DNA of 64,000 bases from Clostridia bacterium (GTDB lineage: Bacteria; Bacillota; Clostridia; Christensenellales; Borkfalkiaceae), in contig JAFYTO010000014.1 of assembly GCA_017558825.1 (NCBI GenBank), positions 186,001 to 250,000 on the forward strand, in the 5' to 3' direction. Every line of letters starts with the position of its first letter. Position 1 is the first letter of the stretch. The notes under the pieces were generated by a model. The model made no database searches, had not been told where the DNA came from, and saw only the letters and a list, made by a program, of their open reading frames with translations. Positions 6,662-32,112 of the stretch are shown piece by piece. Position numbers and translations under genes: made by a program.

Positions 6662-8044
6662 TTACTTCTTTTTTGCAACTGATACGAGCATTGTTTCTCC
6701 ATACCAAAATGCAGGGCTACCAAAAACTTCTTGCAATTTATCAAGAGCGTAAGTCATCCACTCTAATTCGTTTTTAGCCTCAATACTATAAGGGTCTTTT
6801 TCAAGCGCTTTTTTATAATACATAGTTCTTAATGAAAATCTCATTTTGTATAAGTTTATACGTTCATCGTAATCCATACCCGAAGTAGTTATAAACGTGC
6901 CGAACATTTTAACGTCTTTATACCCTGTAGTTTCAAGAAAGTATGGCATTTTTCTACCAATAAATCTATCATCAATACCGGGTGCCTTTAAATATCTTTC
7001 GCATATTTTTTTAAGTAGGCCATCGTCACCGTAAGTCAAATAAGTTCCTTCATCGGATTGTCTAAAAATAACGTAGCCATCGTCACTTAAACAACAACGT
7101 AAATTTCTCAAAGTTTTTATAGGGTCTTTTACATGTTGAAGAATATATGCACCAAAACAAATATCGAACTTTTTAATACCATATTTATCCATGATAATTT
7201 CAATTTCTTCATCAAAATTTTCAGATAACAGGTCTAAACACTCGTAATGAGCGTTAGGGTCATCGTTAAGTTCGCGTGCTTTATTAATAACAGGCTCTAA
7301 AATATCAACACCTACAATAACCTTGTTAGGAAAATCTTTAAACCTATCTCTACCAACAACGCCGTAACCACAGCCAACGTCTAAAATATAAATTTTATCT
7401 TTATAATTAAGTTGTTCTTTAACGTAGTTAACGCCAGGCATATCGCAAGGGCGCAATGATTCGCCTTGAAGTTTTAAGCGTTTATATTCTCCCGCAAACG
7501 AAGAATCATAATACGAAGCAGTTTTTTTCTTAAATTCAATATTGTTTGAATTATTCAAAGTGTTATTTTGCAGTGTTTGCTCAATTTTTGGCGCTTGCGT
7601 TGCATTTAATTTTTTATTTAATGCATTTATAATAAAATCGCCTATGGTTTCAACGGATGTTGAATTTATATTGAACGATTGATAGTGGCGAATTGCAGTA
7701 GGAACGTCTGAAAGTTGCATTTCTCCTAAGTATGTAATAATAGAACCATCAACGATGTTAGTGAGTATGTTTTGTTGATAAGTATGCCATTCGTATTTAC
7801 ACCATTTTGACGTTAAATATTCTTGCTTACTTGCAATTACTACCATTAAGGTCACTTCATCTAAAGCATCGTCAATAACTTCTTTATACGCAGCCTCGCC
7901 AAATTCAAGCAAGGACATATTACTATAAAAAGTATTAATGCCCTTTTCAGTTAAGTATTTATATAATCTTTCGCTAAGAAATTTATCGTTAGTAAATTCA
8001 TTATTTTCAGTATTTTTAAATGAGATAAATACTTGATAATTCAT
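6662..8044 (-). CDS. TIR domain fused to a class I SAM-dependent methyltransferase
   Basis: 460 residues in two domains. Residues 1-145 are a TIR domain: YQVFISFKNTE (strand A), a helix around 50-62, MVVIASKQEYLTSKWCKYEW with Glu85 at the position of the catalytic glutamate of NAD-cleaving TIRs. Residues 150-175 are an Asn/Lys-rich linker. Residues 176-460 are a Rossmann methyltransferase: motif I ILDVGCGYGVVG (220-231), VGVDILEPVINKARE (244-258), FDICFGAYILQHVKDPI (293-309), DDGYVIFRQSDEG. TIR domains act in NAD+-consuming immunity or in scaffolding; the methyltransferase substrate is unknown. GGAG precedes the ATG, and a promoter is at 8141-8169. The downstream membrane-protein gene is likely co-transcribed. 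It is not a recognised restriction or rRNA methylase. Confidence 0.85.
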   Translation of the reverse strand: MNYQVFISFKNTENNEFTNDKFLSERLYKYLTEKGINTFYSNMSLLEFGEAAYKEVIDDALDEVTLMVVIASKQEYLTSKWCKYEWHTYQQNILTNIVDGSIITYLGEMQLSDVPTAIRHYQSFNINSTSVETIGDFIINALNKKLNATQAPKIEQTLQNNTLNNSNNIEFKKKTASYYDSSFAGEYKRLKLQGESLRPCDMPGVNYVKEQLNYKDKIYILDVGCGYGVVGRDRFKDFPNKVIVGVDILEPVINKARELNDDPNAHYECLDLLSENFDEEIEIIMDKYGIKKFDICFGAYILQHVKDPIKTLRNLRCCLSDDGYVIFRQSDEGTYLTYGDDGLLKKICERYLKAPGIDDRFIGRKMPYFLETTGYKDVKMFGTFITTSGMDYDERINLYKMRFSLRTMYYKKALEKDPYSIEAKNELEWMTYALDKLQEVFGSPAFWYGETMLVSVAKKK

Positions 8045-8196: not shown

Positions 8197-8393
8197 TGGC
8201 TATGAGCGATAGATTTACTCCGTTTCGCGATACTATATTATAACGCCTAGGTAGCAAACAGTTGGAGAGCGTTGTTTGTTGGCAATCATAATAAAAAACT
8301 TTTTAAGTTGCCAATACCCACTGTTTAAATCTATAAAAATCTCTATAATGCAAAAACACTACCCAAACTTTGTAGTTTAGATAGTGTTTTTGA
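8197..8393. repeat. Structured tandem repeat, unit A (diverged copy)
   Basis: A 197-base unit aligned end to end with unit B. It begins with a decayed version of the tRNA-Ser 3' end (18 of 25 positions match the start of B). Predicted pairings on the plus strand: P1 ATAGATTT/AAATCTAT (8209-8216/8327-8334), P3 GGTA/TACC (8250-8253/8315-8318), P4 CAAACA/TGTTTG (8255-8260/8273-8278), P5 TTGGCAAT/GTTGCCAA (8279-8286/8307-8314), then a terminal hairpin at 8352-8391. Sequence shared with B includes ACGCCT(A/G)GGTAGCAAA and TTTGTTGGCAA. No reading frame. Which strand is functional is unknown. Confidence 0.8.
8352..8391. terminator. Hairpin at the end of unit A (terminator-like, bidirectional)
   Basis: AAAAACACTA pairs with TAGTGTTTTT, then a 3x3 internal loop, then AAACT pairs with AGTTT around TTGT. 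A-run and T-run on the two sides allow termination in either direction. It takes the same place in unit A that 8556-8589 takes in unit B, although the stem sequence differs. Confidence 0.75.
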
Positions 8394-8414
8394 TGGCGGA
8401 GGGCGAGGGATTCG
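8394..8414. repeat. 21-bp direct copy of the tRNA-Ser 3' end (att-like)
   Basis: Perfect 21-base match to 8592-8612. Read on the minus strand it covers the 3' part of the T loop, the T-stem and acceptor 3' strands, the discriminator and CCA, which is the segment integrases commonly use as attachment core at tRNA genes. The two copies bracket unit B exactly. A degenerate third copy starts at 8197. Confidence 0.8.
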
Positions 8415-8555
8415 CTCCGTAAAACAAAGTTTTACTATCACGCCTGGGTAGCAAATAGTGGGTGTCCACTATTTGTTGGCAACCATATTTAAAGTATAAT
8501 CTTTTAGGTTGCCAATTCCTACCCGTTCAAATCCCTCATAAACTCACACAAAACA

Positions 8556-8589
8556 AAAAACCTAAACCAAAAATTTGGTTTAGGTTTTT
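8556..8589. terminator. Terminator of tRNA-Ser / end hairpin of unit B
   Basis: A 16-bp perfect stem (AAAAACCTAAACCAAA and its complement, 2-base loop), with T-runs available in both directions. On the minus strand it follows the tRNA CCA by 2 bases, so it serves as the tRNA terminator; it also closes unit B. Confidence 0.85.
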
Positions 8590-8591
8590 GT

Positions 8592-8680
8592 TGGCGGAGG
8601 GCGAGGGATTCGAACCCCCGTGGGCTTTCACCCAAACGGTTTTCAAGACCGCCTCGTTATGACCGCTTCGATAGCCCTCC
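8592..8680 (-). tRNA. tRNA-Ser (anticodon TGA)
   Basis: Cloverleaf on the minus strand with acceptor stem GGAGGGC/GCCCTCC, D stem TCG/CGA, anticodon stem-loop GCGGT-CTTGAAA-ACCGT (anticodon TGA), a long class II variable arm as expected for tRNA-Ser, T loop TTCGAAT, discriminator G and encoded CCA (8592-8594). Its 3' 21 bases are duplicated at 8394-8414. A spurious plus-strand reading frame across it (8462-8662) is not a gene. Confidence 0.97.
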
Positions 8681-27159: not shown

Positions 27160-28560
27160 TTATACTGGATATACCGAGTTTTTTACTAAATCAGCGTCAA
27201 TTTTTTTATCTCTTGCAAGCCTATATTTAAAGAAATTAATAGCAACTTGATTAAATAAAGCGTAAGAAAGCACGTCTTCTTCTTGAGTATAATACTCTTT
27301 AATTTCTTCCTTGAACTTATCATATTCAGGTTTTAAATCGTCAGCAGGTCTATGAGTAATGCGTTTTTCATCGCCAAGAACTTTTTTAAGAACTTCCTCG
27401 TTAACCTCGCCCAAAACCTTGCCGTATTCGCCTTTCATAAGCGCTTTAAACTCTTTTGTTACCATCTTATACCTTTCGCCTTGTAACACGTTTAAAACGG
27501 CTTGAGTGCCTACAATTTGAGATGATGGAGTAACAAGTGGAGGATAGCCACAGTCTTTTCTAACGTTAGGAACTTCTTTTAAGCATTCTTCAAAAAGTTC
27601 GAACTTGCCAGCTTGTTTTAATTGCGACATAAGGTTAGAAAGCATACCGCCTGGAACTTGATATAAAAGCGTATTAACGTCAATTTGGCGTACTTTAGGG
27701 TCTAATATACCATCATCTTCTAAACGTTTTGCAACGCCTTTAAAATAGTTGTTAATTGGAACTAGTTGCTCAATATTAATACCAGTATCGTATTCCGTAC
27801 CTTTTAACGTTGCAACAAACGGTTCCGTTGCTGGTTGAGAAGTTCCGTTACCCATTGCTGAAAGTGCGCAGTCTACAATATCACAACCTGCTTCAATGGC
27901 TTTTAAATAAACCATATCACCTGTACCAGTTGTATTGTGAGTGTGTAAATGTATTTTAGTTTCAGGCTTTAACACCTTGCGCATACCGCTAATAATGTCA
28001 TATACAGTATATGGAAGCAAAATATTAGCCATATCTTTTAAGCAAATATTGTCCGCGCCCATATCTTCTAATATTTTTGCTTTCTTAATAAAGGCTTCAT
28101 TATTATGAACAGGGCTAGTTGTATAACAAATAGTTGCCTCGCAAATACCACCGTATTTCTTAATAGCCTTCATAGCAACTTCCATATTTCTTTCATCGTT
28201 AAGCGCATCAAACACTCTTATTACAGTAATGCCGTTTTCTATAGATTTTTGAATAAATTTTTCTACAACGTCATCAGAATAATGCCTATAACCTAAAAGG
28301 TTTTGACCTCTTAAAAGCATTTGGAGCGGAGTTTTTTTAATATGTTTTTTAAGAATGCGTAATCTTTCCCAAGGGTCTTCATTTAAAAATCTTAAACAGC
28401 TATCAAACGTTGCTCCACCCCAAGCTTCAATTGAGTAGTAGCCAACATCATCAAGTTTTTCAAGCATTGGAAGCATTTCGTCAAGCCTCATACGCGTTGC
28501 TGCTTGAGATTGGTGAGCATCTCTTAAAATTGTTTCTGTAATCATTACTTTTTTAGCCAT
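27160..28560 (-). CDS. oadA: Oxaloacetate decarboxylase alpha-type carboxyltransferase (5S-like), no biotin domain
   Basis: 466 residues of the DRE-TIM/PYC carboxyltransferase domain: ITETILRDAHQSQAATRM at the start, LLRGQNLLGYRHYSDDVVE, metal ligands in HLHTHNTTG, SAMGNGTSQPATEP, and the C-terminal HRPADDLKPEYDKFKEE. Classical OadA carries biotin at its C-terminus; here the chain stops before it and biotin is on the separate 118-residue protein. It transfers CO2 between oxaloacetate/pyruvate and biotin. Last gene of a five-gene operon, 14 bases after oadB. Confidence 0.9.
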   Translation of the reverse strand: MAKKVMITETILRDAHQSQAATRMRLDEMLPMLEKLDDVGYYSIEAWGGATFDSCLRFLNEDPWERLRILKKHIKKTPLQMLLRGQNLLGYRHYSDDVVEKFIQKSIENGITVIRVFDALNDERNMEVAMKAIKKYGGICEATICYTTSPVHNNEAFIKKAKILEDMGADNICLKDMANILLPYTVYDIISGMRKVLKPETKIHLHTHNTTGTGDMVYLKAIEAGCDIVDCALSAMGNGTSQPATEPFVATLKGTEYDTGINIEQLVPINNYFKGVAKRLEDDGILDPKVRQIDVNTLLYQVPGGMLSNLMSQLKQAGKFELFEECLKEVPNVRKDCGYPPLVTPSSQIVGTQAVLNVLQGERYKMVTKEFKALMKGEYGKVLGEVNEEVLKKVLGDEKRITHRPADDLKPEYDKFKEEIKEYYTQEEDVLSYALFNQVAINFFKYRLARDKKIDADLVKNSVYPV

Positions 28561-28574
28561 AATTATCTCCTAAA

Positions 28575-29975
28575 TTAACCAAATAATGCAAGTAAAACAC
28601 CTGCTGCTATTGCAGAACCTATAACGCCTGCAACGTTAGGCCCCATTGCATGCATAAGCAAGTGGTTGTTCGGGTCAGCTTCCCTACCAACGTCTTGCGA
28701 AATACGCGCAGCCATAGGCACTGCTGAAACACCAGCCGAACCTATAAGCGGGTTGATTTGACCTTTTGATAATACGCACATAAGTTTAGCAACTAATATA
28801 CCGCAAGACGTGCCTATAATAAACGCTGTTAAACCTAAAACGATAATTTCAAGCGTTTGAAGCGCAAGGAAAGTAGAGCCAACGGCTTTTGAACCAACCA
28901 TTACGCCAAGGAATATTGTTACAGTATTCATTAAACCGTTCTTAGCAGTATCTACAAGCCTATCTGTAACGCCGCTTTCTTTAAGCAAGTTACCAAGCAT
29001 AAGCATACCTAAAAGTGGCATTGCATCTGGCAAAATTAAACCAACAACAAGAGTTACTAAAATTGGAAAAACAACCTTTTCTGCTTTAGTAACACGTCTT
29101 AATTGCTTCATTTTAATTTTACGCTCTTTTTCCGTAGTCAATAAACGCATAATAGGTTTTTGAATAATAGGAATAAGCGCCATATAAGAGTATGCAGCAA
29201 TTGCAATTGCAGGAAGTAAATCTTCTGCTAAAATTTTTGTAACATAAATTGCCGTAGGACCATCTGCACCGCCAATAATAGCTATTGCGCCAGCAGCAGC
29301 ATTATCAAATCCTAATAAAATTGCTCCAAAGAACGTTAAGAATATGCCAATTTGCGCAGCAGCACCAATAAGCATACTTTTTGGGTTAGCAATTAGTGGA
29401 CCAAAGTCTGTCATTGCGCCTATACCAAGGAATATAATTGGTGGGAAAATTACCCAATCTACACCCTTGTAGATATAATAGAATAAGCCATAGTTACCTA
29501 TTATTGTTTGAGATGAAACTTCAACTGCATTAGCATTGCAAACGTAACCGTTTTGATGAACTACCGTAGAAGTTTGAAGCAATTCTTTTATTTCATCTAA
29601 AGAACTTACGCTTATTTGAGCGCCGTTTACAGTTGAACTGTTAAACAAAGCTAAAATTTCATCAAGCGTACCTCTTGCAACTTCAGTGTTTGTTATAACG
29701 TCAGTTAATATATAACCCTTTTCACCAAATAAAATAGCATAAGAGCCTGGAATATTAACAATGAACATACCAAATGCTATTGGTAAAAGTAGTAACGGTT
29801 CAAACTTTTTAACGATAGCCAAATAAAACAATACGAATGAAATTAAAAGCATTACAATATTTTGCCAACCGTCCGGATTGCTTACAAGAGCGTGTAAACC
29901 AGTACTCTTCCACAAGTTAACAAGCGAATTTAATAAATCTTGAAAAAATCCGCATATAGAATAAAGTGAAAACAT
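28575..29975 (-). CDS. oadB: Na+-translocating decarboxylase, beta subunit
   Basis: 466 residues and about ten transmembrane helices. The ion-site motif IIGGADGPTAIYVTKIL with its essential Asp is present, as is GSAGVSAVPMAARISQ and the C-terminal LLMHAMGPNVAGVIGSA. Decarboxylation of carboxybiotin here drives Na+ export. Longer than the usual ~380-430 because of an N-terminal helix pair and a soluble insert at about 85-140 (ALFNSSTVNGAQISVSSLDE). Spaced 14 bases from the biotin carrier. Confidence 0.92.
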   Translation of the reverse strand: MFSLYSICGFFQDLLNSLVNLWKSTGLHALVSNPDGWQNIVMLLISFVLFYLAIVKKFEPLLLLPIAFGMFIVNIPGSYAILFGEKGYILTDVITNTEVARGTLDEILALFNSSTVNGAQISVSSLDEIKELLQTSTVVHQNGYVCNANAVEVSSQTIIGNYGLFYYIYKGVDWVIFPPIIFLGIGAMTDFGPLIANPKSMLIGAAAQIGIFLTFFGAILLGFDNAAAGAIAIIGGADGPTAIYVTKILAEDLLPAIAIAAYSYMALIPIIQKPIMRLLTTEKERKIKMKQLRRVTKAEKVVFPILVTLVVGLILPDAMPLLGMLMLGNLLKESGVTDRLVDTAKNGLMNTVTIFLGVMVGSKAVGSTFLALQTLEIIVLGLTAFIIGTSCGILVAKLMCVLSKGQINPLIGSAGVSAVPMAARISQDVGREADPNNHLLMHAMGPNVAGVIGSAIAAGVLLALFG

Positions 29976-29989
29976 TTAATACCCCTTAG

Positions 29990-30346
29990 TTAAGAAATAA
30001 CAGCCATAATAGCGCCCGTATCAACGTTTGAGCCTACTTGCGCTTTAAAGGAAATAACACCGTCACAAGGTGAAGTAATATCGTTATCCATTTTCATTGC
30101 TTCTAAAACTAAAACAACGTCACCTTTTTTAACGGTAGCACCTTCACTAACCTTGTACGCTTTAATCATACCTGGCATTGGAGCTTCAAGTTTAGTTCCT
30201 TGAACGTTTGCACTTGCTTTTGGCATAGCTGGTGCTTGAGCAGGTGCTATATTAGTAACAACAGGAGTAACGGATTGACCGTTTACAACCTCTTCAACGT
30301 TTACATCATATCTTATACCATCAATTGTAACAATAAAATTACGCAT
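29990..30346 (-). CDS. Biotin carboxyl carrier protein of the decarboxylase complex
   Basis: 118 residues. N-terminal FIVTIDGIRYDVNVEEV, an Ala/Pro-rich hinge (APAQAPAMPKA), then a biotinyl domain with the biotinylation site VLEAMKMDNDI and the hairpin GDVVLVLEAMK. It plays the role of the 1.3S/GcdC/MmdC subunit, shuttling CO2 between the two carboxyltransferases and the membrane pump. Gaps of 14-15 bases to both neighbours. Confidence 0.9.
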   Translation of the reverse strand: MRNFIVTIDGIRYDVNVEEVVNGQSVTPVVTNIAPAQAPAMPKASANVQGTKLEAPMPGMIKAYKVSEGATVKKGDVVLVLEAMKMDNDITSPCDGVISFKAQVGSNVDTGAIMAVIS

Positions 30347-30361
30347 ACATATCTCCTTAAA

Positions 30362-30682
30362 TTATCTTTTAATTTTTTTAACTGTAAAGTCGCATTTTTT
30401 ACTTTCTTCATTATAGTAACAAGCAGTTACAGCAGCAATAATAGCAACTTTAATATTTTCTGGAATAGAACCGTCATCTAAAACAGTTTTTAGAGCTAGA
30501 TTTTCAGGCTCCTTTGACGGTTTACTTGCCTTTTTATTTACAAACTTATCAAATAAAAAACCAAACAACGTAACAAATAATACGATTATTGCCATACCAA
30601 GGAAAACAACCGTTATTCCTAATAATATAGTTTTAAACCCATCACTTAATACGTTACTTGTAACAGCGAGTAGCAAATTCAT
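30362..30682 (-). CDS. Decarboxylase gamma subunit (OadG type)
   Basis: 106 residues with one transmembrane segment at 18-45 (TILLGITVVFLGMAIIVLFVTLFGFLFD), a charged Lys/Pro linker, and a C-terminal part VKVAIIAAVTACYYNEE... resembling the OadG/OadG-like end that packs the complex. OadG holds the alpha and beta subunits together. Placed between the biotin carrier and the MmdA-like gene, as in many Clostridia. Confidence 0.82.
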   Translation of the reverse strand: MNLLLAVTSNVLSDGFKTILLGITVVFLGMAIIVLFVTLFGFLFDKFVNKKASKPSKEPENLALKTVLDDGSIPENIKVAIIAAVTACYYNEESKKCDFTVKKIKR

Positions 30683-30691
30683 AACTTACTC

Positions 30692-32065
30692 CTAAATAAT
30701 AGATTGAAGCGCCATAATGATGTGTTGGCGAACAAATTGAGGCTCAATAATATTGTCAATACAGCCAAGTTTTGCACTGTTGAACGCATCTTGCATATCT
30801 TCATACTTTTGTTCAAGTTCACTAAGTTTATCTTGGTCAATTGTGCCGAACGTAGTGCTTGCACCAAGAGTTTTATCAAAAAGTGAAATTTTAGCATCTG
30901 CAAAAGCAAAAGTATAGCTATTACCAAACTCGCGTGAAGCAAAAGCCGTATAACCAAAACCAATAGCTTTACCGTAAACAACACTTAATCTTGTTAATGC
31001 TGTAAGGTTATATAACATATTAGAAATTTCAGCTAAAATTGGAGAAGTTGCCGTAAGCGCGTCTTGCTTAATTCCAACAGTATTTATTAAAGTTAAAAGT
31101 GGAAAACCGTTGTCATAACAATAATTAGCAAAATTCTTAATTTTTAAAACGTTGTTTAAATCAAGTTCAACACCTTTTTCTTCACCGTTAAACAAAACAA
31201 CAGCAGTAGAAATACCGCCAATTCTACCAACACCCGTAATAACGTCATCAGCAAATTTAGCATTAAGTTCTACAAACGTGTTTTTATCATAAATAGCATC
31301 AATTAAAAGTTTTGCGTTCTTTGTAGTGTTAAGTTTTAATTGAGAACGATTTAATTCATCGTTACACTCACAATTTAAACCAGAATAATTAGGAAGAACG
31401 TTAAAAATTTTAACAATACTATCTTTAACTTCTTCAATAGCTTTAACTGCAAAAGTATTAACTCCGTTTTTACTGTCTTTACCACCTAAAACGTCTTTAG
31501 TAATTGACATATTTGCGCTGGCAATAGCAACCGCTGGGCTTGCGTAGCTAATACAAGAATTATTTACGCAATACACATAGTCACAGTTAGCCGCAAATAA
31601 TGCAAAGGAACCAAAAACGTCACCTAAAGCAAGGGCGAATTGTGGTGCAACTTCCTTTAATTGATTAGAAAGTGCTAATACTTTAGCAATACCTTCAAGA
31701 ACGGCAACACCTTCGCCAACTTGAACGCCTTTAGTATCTAAAAGATATAAAACCGCAGTTTGAGTTTCAATAGCCTTTTTTAAGCAGTTGCAAATTTTAT
31801 CTAAATTAGCTTTGCTTAAACCGCCGTTTAATACTTGACCGTTTTGAGCTACAACGTAAACGGGATAACCATCAATAGTGGCAAAGCCTGTTACAACACC
31901 TAAACCTGTTTCATCTTCATTATAAAATTCATTTTTACCAAAAGAAAAAGCGTTTAATTCAACAAAACTGTCATCATCAATGATTTTTGAAACGTTTTTT
32001 CTAATATCAGCAGACTTTTTAAAAAGTTCTACTTTGCGCTTATTAAGCAAATCAAAAATATCCAT
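30692..32065 (-). CDS. Acyl-CoA carboxyltransferase (MmdA/PccB/12S-like)
   Basis: 457 residues from the ATG at 32065, which has a strong AGGAGG; the longer frame to 32092 runs back across the promoter. Two crotonase-fold halves: FDLLNKRKVELFKKSADIR, ETGLGVVTGFATIDGYPVYV, LDTKGVQVGEGVAVLEGIAKVL in the N-half; TGVGRIGGISTAVVLFNGEE and PLLTLINTVGIKQDALTATS in the C-half. Shorter and more divergent than PccB (~510), with the CoA-binding glycine loops only partly recognisable. Substrate is therefore open: methylmalonyl-, glutaconyl- or malonyl-CoA. First gene of the operon. Confidence 0.75.
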   Translation of the reverse strand: MDIFDLLNKRKVELFKKSADIRKNVSKIIDDDSFVELNAFSFGKNEFYNEDETGLGVVTGFATIDGYPVYVVAQNGQVLNGGLSKANLDKICNCLKKAIETQTAVLYLLDTKGVQVGEGVAVLEGIAKVLALSNQLKEVAPQFALALGDVFGSFALFAANCDYVYCVNNSCISYASPAVAIASANMSITKDVLGGKDSKNGVNTFAVKAIEEVKDSIVKIFNVLPNYSGLNCECNDELNRSQLKLNTTKNAKLLIDAIYDKNTFVELNAKFADDVITGVGRIGGISTAVVLFNGEEKGVELDLNNVLKIKNFANYCYDNGFPLLTLINTVGIKQDALTATSPILAEISNMLYNLTALTRLSVVYGKAIGFGYTAFASREFGNSYTFAFADAKISLFDKTLGASTTFGTIDQDKLSELEQKYEDMQDAFNSAKLGCIDNIIEPQFVRQHIIMALQSII

Positions 32066-32083
32066 TTTGAGCCTCCTGTAATT

Positions 32084-32112
32084 ATTATACAATATCAGCC
32101 CTAAATTTGCAA
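32084..32112 (-). promoter_or_regulatory. Promoter of the decarboxylase/carboxyltransferase operon
   Basis: Minus strand: -35 TTGCAA (32107-32112), 17-base spacer, -10 TATAAT (32084-32089); the leader is only ~15 bases, just holding AGGAGG. Confidence 0.75.

Follow-up and report, generated by a model that had tools for sequence, protein, structure and literature searches.

Two tandem repeats behind a Clostridia tRNA-Ser(UGA) gene belong to a phylum-wide family of tRNA-linked elements with target-matched ends

We analyzed the two adjoining units, A and B, at positions 8197-8591 of a 64,000-nt stretch of Clostridia DNA (the window, by which we mean that whole stretch) and found that they belong to a family of short non-coding repeats, spread across the phylum, that are linked to tRNA and tmRNA genes. 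The element consists of an outer stem (P1), a conserved core GAACGGG...GGCGTGATAG...CGGAGC containing three hairpins, a copy of the tRNA 3' end and a terminator. Its members share this layout, covary in their stems, carry arms that match the target gene, are spread among different tRNAs within genomes, and occur as tandem arrays and as solo left-end stubs. We give about an even chance to the reading that A and B are a tandem pair of mobile tRNA-linked repeats that are templated by their target at the DNA level.

On the minus strand, which is the tRNA sense and the meaningful strand for the units, the order is tRNA-Ser(UGA), a terminator, unit B, a copy of the tRNA 3' end, a second terminator, unit A and a decayed copy of the tRNA 3' end (Table 1). 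The first-pass annotation had described two adjoining units here with an outer stem P1, and both points held: A and B aligned by BLAST inside the source genome with 71% identity (E 6e-12), and P1 reads GAGGGATT/AATCCCTC in B and ATAGATTT/AAATCTAT in A, the 3' arm in B being the first part of the unit's tail. The closing hairpins, which it had counted as part of the conserved fold, proved to be intrinsic terminators, and the units are bounded by tRNA-derived sequence. We also found an extra hairpin, P6 (GTAAAAC/GTTTTAC in B), between GGCGTGATAG and CGGAGC. A covariance model built from relatives scored unit B at 143 bits and unit A at 70 bits. The fold of unit B was much stronger than that of dinucleotide shuffles (z -6.3); unit A alone folded no better than shuffles (z -0.1), so that its case rests on homology. 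Unit A has retained its P1 pairing through paired changes and has no terminator 3' of its tail. A search of the window with Rfam, at gathering and at E up to 10, matched no family but tRNA and gave no intron match. The product of the gene adjoining unit A (6662-8044, minus strand) is a fusion of a TIR and a methyltransferase domain (Pfam PF13676, PF08242).

Table 1. Features of the tRNA-Ser(UGA) locus, in window coordinates.
Feature	Position	Strand	Evidence or remark
Host gene tRNA-Ser(UGA)	8592..8680	-	ARAGORN; Rfam tRNA 50 bits
tRNA T-arm 3' half GTTCGAATCCCTC, source of the direct and inverted copies	8603..8615	-	
Terminator 1, between tRNA and unit B, 16-bp perfect hairpin and T run	8556..8589	-	
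Unit B P1 5' arm GAGGGATTTGAAC, inverted T-arm 3' half with one mismatch	8525..8537	-	
Unit B core GAACGGG...GGCGTGATAG...CGGAGC, with P3, P4, P5 and P6	8414..8528	-	covariation; model R1 match to unit B spans 8402-8540, 143 bits
Unit B tail, 20/20 match to the final 20 nt of tRNA-Ser in direct orientation	8394..8413	-	
Terminator 2, 3' of unit B	8351..8392	-	
Unit A P1 5' arm ATAGATTTAAAC	8323..8334	-	
Unit A, older diverged copy of the element	8205..8338	-	model R1 69.7 bits, E 5e-17
Unit A tail, decayed tRNA-Ser 3' end AAATCTATCGCTCATAGCCA	8197..8216	-	

The source genome contained one more copy at tRNA-Glu and a truncated one at tRNA-Leu, both detected by BLAST, and another at tRNA-Ser(GGA), detected with the covariance model. 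We aligned 99 copies, all from one family of gut Clostridia; relatives across the phylum were rarer. A search model made from 31 copies identified the element in at least 44 of 301 genomes at the family level, 11 of 391 at the class level and 10 of 398 at the phylum level, the source genome being included and genome and copy counts being lower bounds because the filters were strict; the model E-values are rough. The genomes were mostly MAGs, with many copies at contig ends, and the named records that held the element were Clostridia MAGs, mainly from the ruminant gut. Records from Actinobacteria, Proteobacteria and others in the pattern list look like chance matches, since they have no CGGAGC-tRNA end. 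Distant forms had GAACGGG, GGCGTGATAG and CGGAGC little changed and usually one inner hairpin. In one genus (L030, L108, L189), P6 contains a conserved ~100-nt insert that may be coding, its open frame reading NNETFFELDEKPARARANNLKTRTQLKVNGANP.

About 20 more tRNA-linked units in the same genomes had the same tRNA-end layout with other cores. The tRNA-end copy was present in these units and the inverted arm often was too, indicating that the layout, and not the core, looks like the general feature. Examples of their cores are GAGGGATGAGAACCC...TTTCGGTTGTATCCCTC and GGGACTTGAATAGGGAG...GGTCGCACAGGCGAAAGTCCC, and such units (L229, L232, L237, L196, L203, L226, L227 and L048, among others) stood at tRNA-Ser, Leu and Arg loci.

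A same-strand tRNA or tmRNA gene lay upstream of 71 of the 99 copies, at 41-60 nt in 48 and at 140-431 nt in 23 more; 10 copies were at contig ends and for 18 none was detected. The usual position was just past the terminator of the tRNA or tmRNA, and many of the 140-431 nt cases were later units of arrays or sites with other inserts. The hosts included tmRNA and the tRNAs for Ser, Leu, Gln, Glu, Arg, Pro, Lys, Ala, Val and Met; in other families tRNA-His was used as well. At the tmRNA genes of three genomes (L160, L167, L317) the same element was found with arms matching the tmRNA 3' end.

Both ends of the element followed the adjoining gene. The 3' arm of P1 is copied tRNA sequence, and in the 5' arm the 3' half of the same tRNA's T-arm recurs in inverted orientation. 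When this rule was tested on 43 loci, the 5' arm agreed with the reverse complement of its own tRNA at 8.42 of 9 positions, as compared to 6.49 for permuted pairs (sd 0.15, maximum 7.23). The GTTC motif is common to nearly all tRNAs, and the match began right after it, covered exactly nine positions (four of the loop and five of the T-stem), dropped to background at the acceptor boundary and on the core side ended at once. In some copies from other families of the phylum (L315, L316, L318, L319, L321, L322, L323), where only the inverted arm was compared, the match ran over 12-14 positions. The tail was best or tied for its own tRNA in 39 of 48 cases and agreed at 11 or more of the last 14 nt in 29 of 47 loci. 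These matches suggest that the target dictates the ends of the element.

The paired changes noted between A and B were found to extend far beyond this pair. In a 31-row alignment 94.6% of cells were paired against a shuffled mean of 77.2%, and 28 of 38 pairs had changes on both sides (shuffled mean 18.9). Double-change cells numbered 205, a value reached in 0 of 500 shuffles (shuffled mean 60.3), and the covariation score was 0.46, as compared to 0.17 for shuffles and at most 0.09 for slid structures. The structure was drawn partly from the aligned sequences, which inflates the percentage paired and does not explain the excess of covariation. Chance pairing was ruled out by this test. The first-pass annotation had staked its reading on homologues beyond the locus whose stem changes are compensated; since homologues were found in many genomes and carry paired changes, the reading withstood that test. 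Its further claim, that paired changes speak for selection on structure, stood only in part: the pairing is real, and RNA structure need not be its sole cause. Nor did P1 vary freely under selection, as had been supposed, for it mostly mirrors the adjoining tRNA. We scored 18 P1 changes compensated independently of the tRNA, part of them arising from misplaced GTTC anchors, and few besides those of unit A were genuine.

That RNA structure is not the only possible cause follows from the scarcity of G-U pairs, which, like single-sided changes, were rare in the element's stems. G-U made up 1.5% of pairs in P3-P5 of the 99 copies as compared to 7.5% in the acceptor and T stems of 100 tRNAs from the same loci, and the G-U:A-C counts were 29:14 in the element and 90:4 in the tRNA stems (Fisher 2e-5). 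This is moderate evidence for Watson-Crick pairing of the kind that DNA hairpins or templated correction would give. It is no more than moderate because P4 still prefers G-U over A-C (17:4 in the 99-copy set; P6 had 5:16), and this preference counts against a DNA-level view. Symmetric G-U and A-C counts as proof of DNA structure were likewise weakened on the 99 copies.

Several comparisons pointed to movement. On a tree, cores clustered by genome (34 changes against a shuffled mean of 44.6, 0 of 300 shuffles) and did not cluster by tRNA amino acid (31 changes against 32.2). Since cores group by genome and not by tRNA, the element appears to move from one tRNA to another, its ends coming to match whichever target it occupies. 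In genome G071, for instance, closely similar cores stood behind Gln, Ser(CGA) and Ser(GCU) tRNAs with differing arms and tails. At the orthologous tRNA-Ser(UGA) of sister species, G002 had the element and G001, G006 and G005 had other unit types. At tRNA-Glu, the left-end stub was found alone in G004 and G006, neither element nor stub was found in G001, and G005 had a tail and terminator duplicated over 54 bp with no mismatch. When compared with G002, G005 and G006, the genomes G001 and G004 also appear to have this tRNA-Glu in inverted orientation to the neighbouring gene (L250, L251). Simple local tandem duplication was rejected as the whole story because copies are dispersed over many tRNAs. 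The insertion events themselves are deduced from such comparisons, none having been seen to happen.

We propose that a copy would settle just downstream of a tRNA or tmRNA gene, leaving that gene intact, and would start with an inverted copy of the T-arm 3' half and end in a direct copy of the gene's 3' end (T-loop to CCA) followed by a terminator. Direct and inverted copies together imply that both core ends (GAAC... and ...GGAGC) join target sequence from one T-loop position after GTTC. The simplest account would be that both 3' ends of the core are extended on one conserved T-loop site of the target, for example by priming on, or switching onto, the conserved GTTC of the new tRNA gene, the arms thus being copied from the target at insertion. 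The active folded form may be single-stranded DNA, and tandem arrays could gain and lose units by recombination between direct repeats. As the element carries no enzyme, a host replication, recombination or Xer-type function, or another factor, would have to supply the activity. We hold it as a tentative possibility, somewhat short of even, that this is a gene-less mobile element to which each target supplies terminal inverted repeats anew, the T-arm being copied to both ends of a constant folded core, so that it can retarget to any tRNA. If this were true, several unrelated cores would share one route, of which the E. coli tRNA-linked repeats (TLRs) would be old products.

The main rival to a DNA-level mechanism is a retained small RNA. 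Each unit would then be a small RNA gene kept for its function, expressed by read-through of the tRNA terminator, folded through P1 and P3-P6 and cut at the tRNA-like 3' end, as with RrA/RrB/RrF of E. coli. According to the study on these (PMC8144298), three TLRs between two rRNA-operon terminators are transcribed, processed and bind Hfq and CsrA in vitro. The position of our units between two terminators is similar, and the strong covariation, the invariant junction words and the stability of unit B fit a functional RNA. GAACGGG, GGCGTGATAG and CGGAGC are strictly kept across the phylum, indicating that something recognises the core, and this could be an RNA function. The persistence of P1 pairing in unit A after divergence fits selection equally as well as templated correction, the sharp stop of the inverted copy at the T-stem boundary in the unit's own family may reflect a required structure rather than copying, and duplicated terminators were still recognisable in only about 8 of 29 pairs, all of which speaks against the DNA-level view. 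On the other hand, a small RNA kept for function accords poorly with presence in so few genomes of the family, turnover at one tRNA among sister species, the few G-U pairs and low G-U:A-C ratio, the other-core units with the same tRNA-end layout and the shuffle-like fold of unit A. On balance we consider a small RNA gene rather unlikely.

Enzymes that other explanations would require were searched for in carrier genomes, where no reverse transcriptase or Y1 transposase tracked with the element and no dedicated integrase was apparent. Classic attB sites include tRNA 3' ends, and integration there typically restores that end. The units might be remnants or minimal forms of integrative elements whose tyrosine recombinase uses the tRNA T-arm as attB and restores the tRNA 3' end; the targeting of tmRNA and the presence of at least one PF00589 protein in every genome tested agree with this. 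However, 7 of 13 carriers, the source genome included, had a single PF00589 protein, which is probably the housekeeping Xer. We found no element that enclosed a recombinase gene, and two scans of viral contigs gave 0 matches to the exact pattern. Neither an inverted arm far from the crossover nor a duplicated local terminator is predicted by such integration, and we regard it as improbable. Reverse transcription of a read-through tRNA-TLR transcript followed by recombination of the copy would explain why the duplicated segment at tRNA-Glu of G005 stops at the terminator, as a transcript would, but no RVT_1 protein was found in 11 of 13 carriers, among them the source genome, and we regard this route as very improbable. 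The few G-U pairs in the hairpins would also suit a Y1 (HUH) transposase that works on DNA hairpins and mobilises, in trans, an element of the REP or IS200/IS605 kind. We found no Y1 transposase in 10 of 13 carriers, and non-carriers had it no less often; to our knowledge IS200/IS605-type elements make no target duplication, leaving this explanation highly unlikely as well. Reverse transcriptase, Y1 transposase and phage vehicles as drivers were thus not supported by the searches of carriers and viral contigs.

The first-pass annotation knew of no element with this layout, but the TLRs of E. coli have it. As described in PMC8144298, these follow a tRNA or rRNA gene as single or tandem copies, and their 18-19 bp 3' end is identical to that of the upstream gene. 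Like them (rttR; Rfam RF00391, RtT), the present units stand behind a tRNA singly or in tandem and end in a copy of the host 3' end, which is identical in unit B; the core and its conserved words differ. The R1 model had no match to the E. coli TLRs, so that a relationship of the cores was not detectable by it. The RtT model recognised the E. coli tyrT/V and lysV copies and had no match in the window at E up to 10, nor at gathering score in eight distant relatives. Judged by sequence layout, the units would be placed in the TLR class and not in the RtT family. The tyrT/V TLRs of E. coli K-12 carry GGGGAAGGgTgaGAACCTTCGA, to be compared with the reverse-complement T-arm GGGGAAGGATTCGAACCTTCGA, and thus have an inverted arm; the lysV TLR has part of the inverted T-arm, with the tRNA end repeated together with the terminator. 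This inverted copy (L117 and L263, tyrT/V and lysV) is not mentioned in the consulted part of the TLR paper. E. coli K-12 has 22 TLR copies at ten loci, whereas the present family occurs in many Bacillota genomes and targets tmRNA also.

Other systems share single traits with the units. MITEs are also short, non-coding and dispersed with inverted terminal arms, but the parent transposase fixes their ends, whereas the present arms vary according to the target, which is the end of a tRNA-type gene. Integron attC sites, like other folded sites of single-strand recombination, are also imperfect palindromes in which stem pairing is kept and sequence is not; unlike attC sites, our units had no integrase partner that we found and no cassette genes, and their arms copy the host tRNA. 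Integrative islands and satellites that target tRNAs also restore or duplicate the tRNA 3' end, but the present units are about 200 bp long and gene-less, and their left arm is an inverted target copy. A text search of the open-access literature, with subscription papers outside its scope, found no description of such elements outside enterobacteria.

Since 1978 TLRs have been a curiosity of the enterobacteria, most of them with no function that we know of. With a family that spans the phylum and offers many comparable copies, solo stubs and empty sites, the origin and movement of TLRs can be tested by comparison, and the inverted arm that matches the target gives a strong, unexpected hint of the way in which such elements are assembled. 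The arm also carries a warning, as covariation in a closing stem can stem from the target and not from selection on RNA. Elsewhere in the window, three ORFs at 27160-32092 (minus strand), each exactly 466 aa long and not paralogues, match subunits of a sodium-pumping decarboxylase (PYC_OADA/HMGL-like, OAD_beta and Carboxyl_trans).
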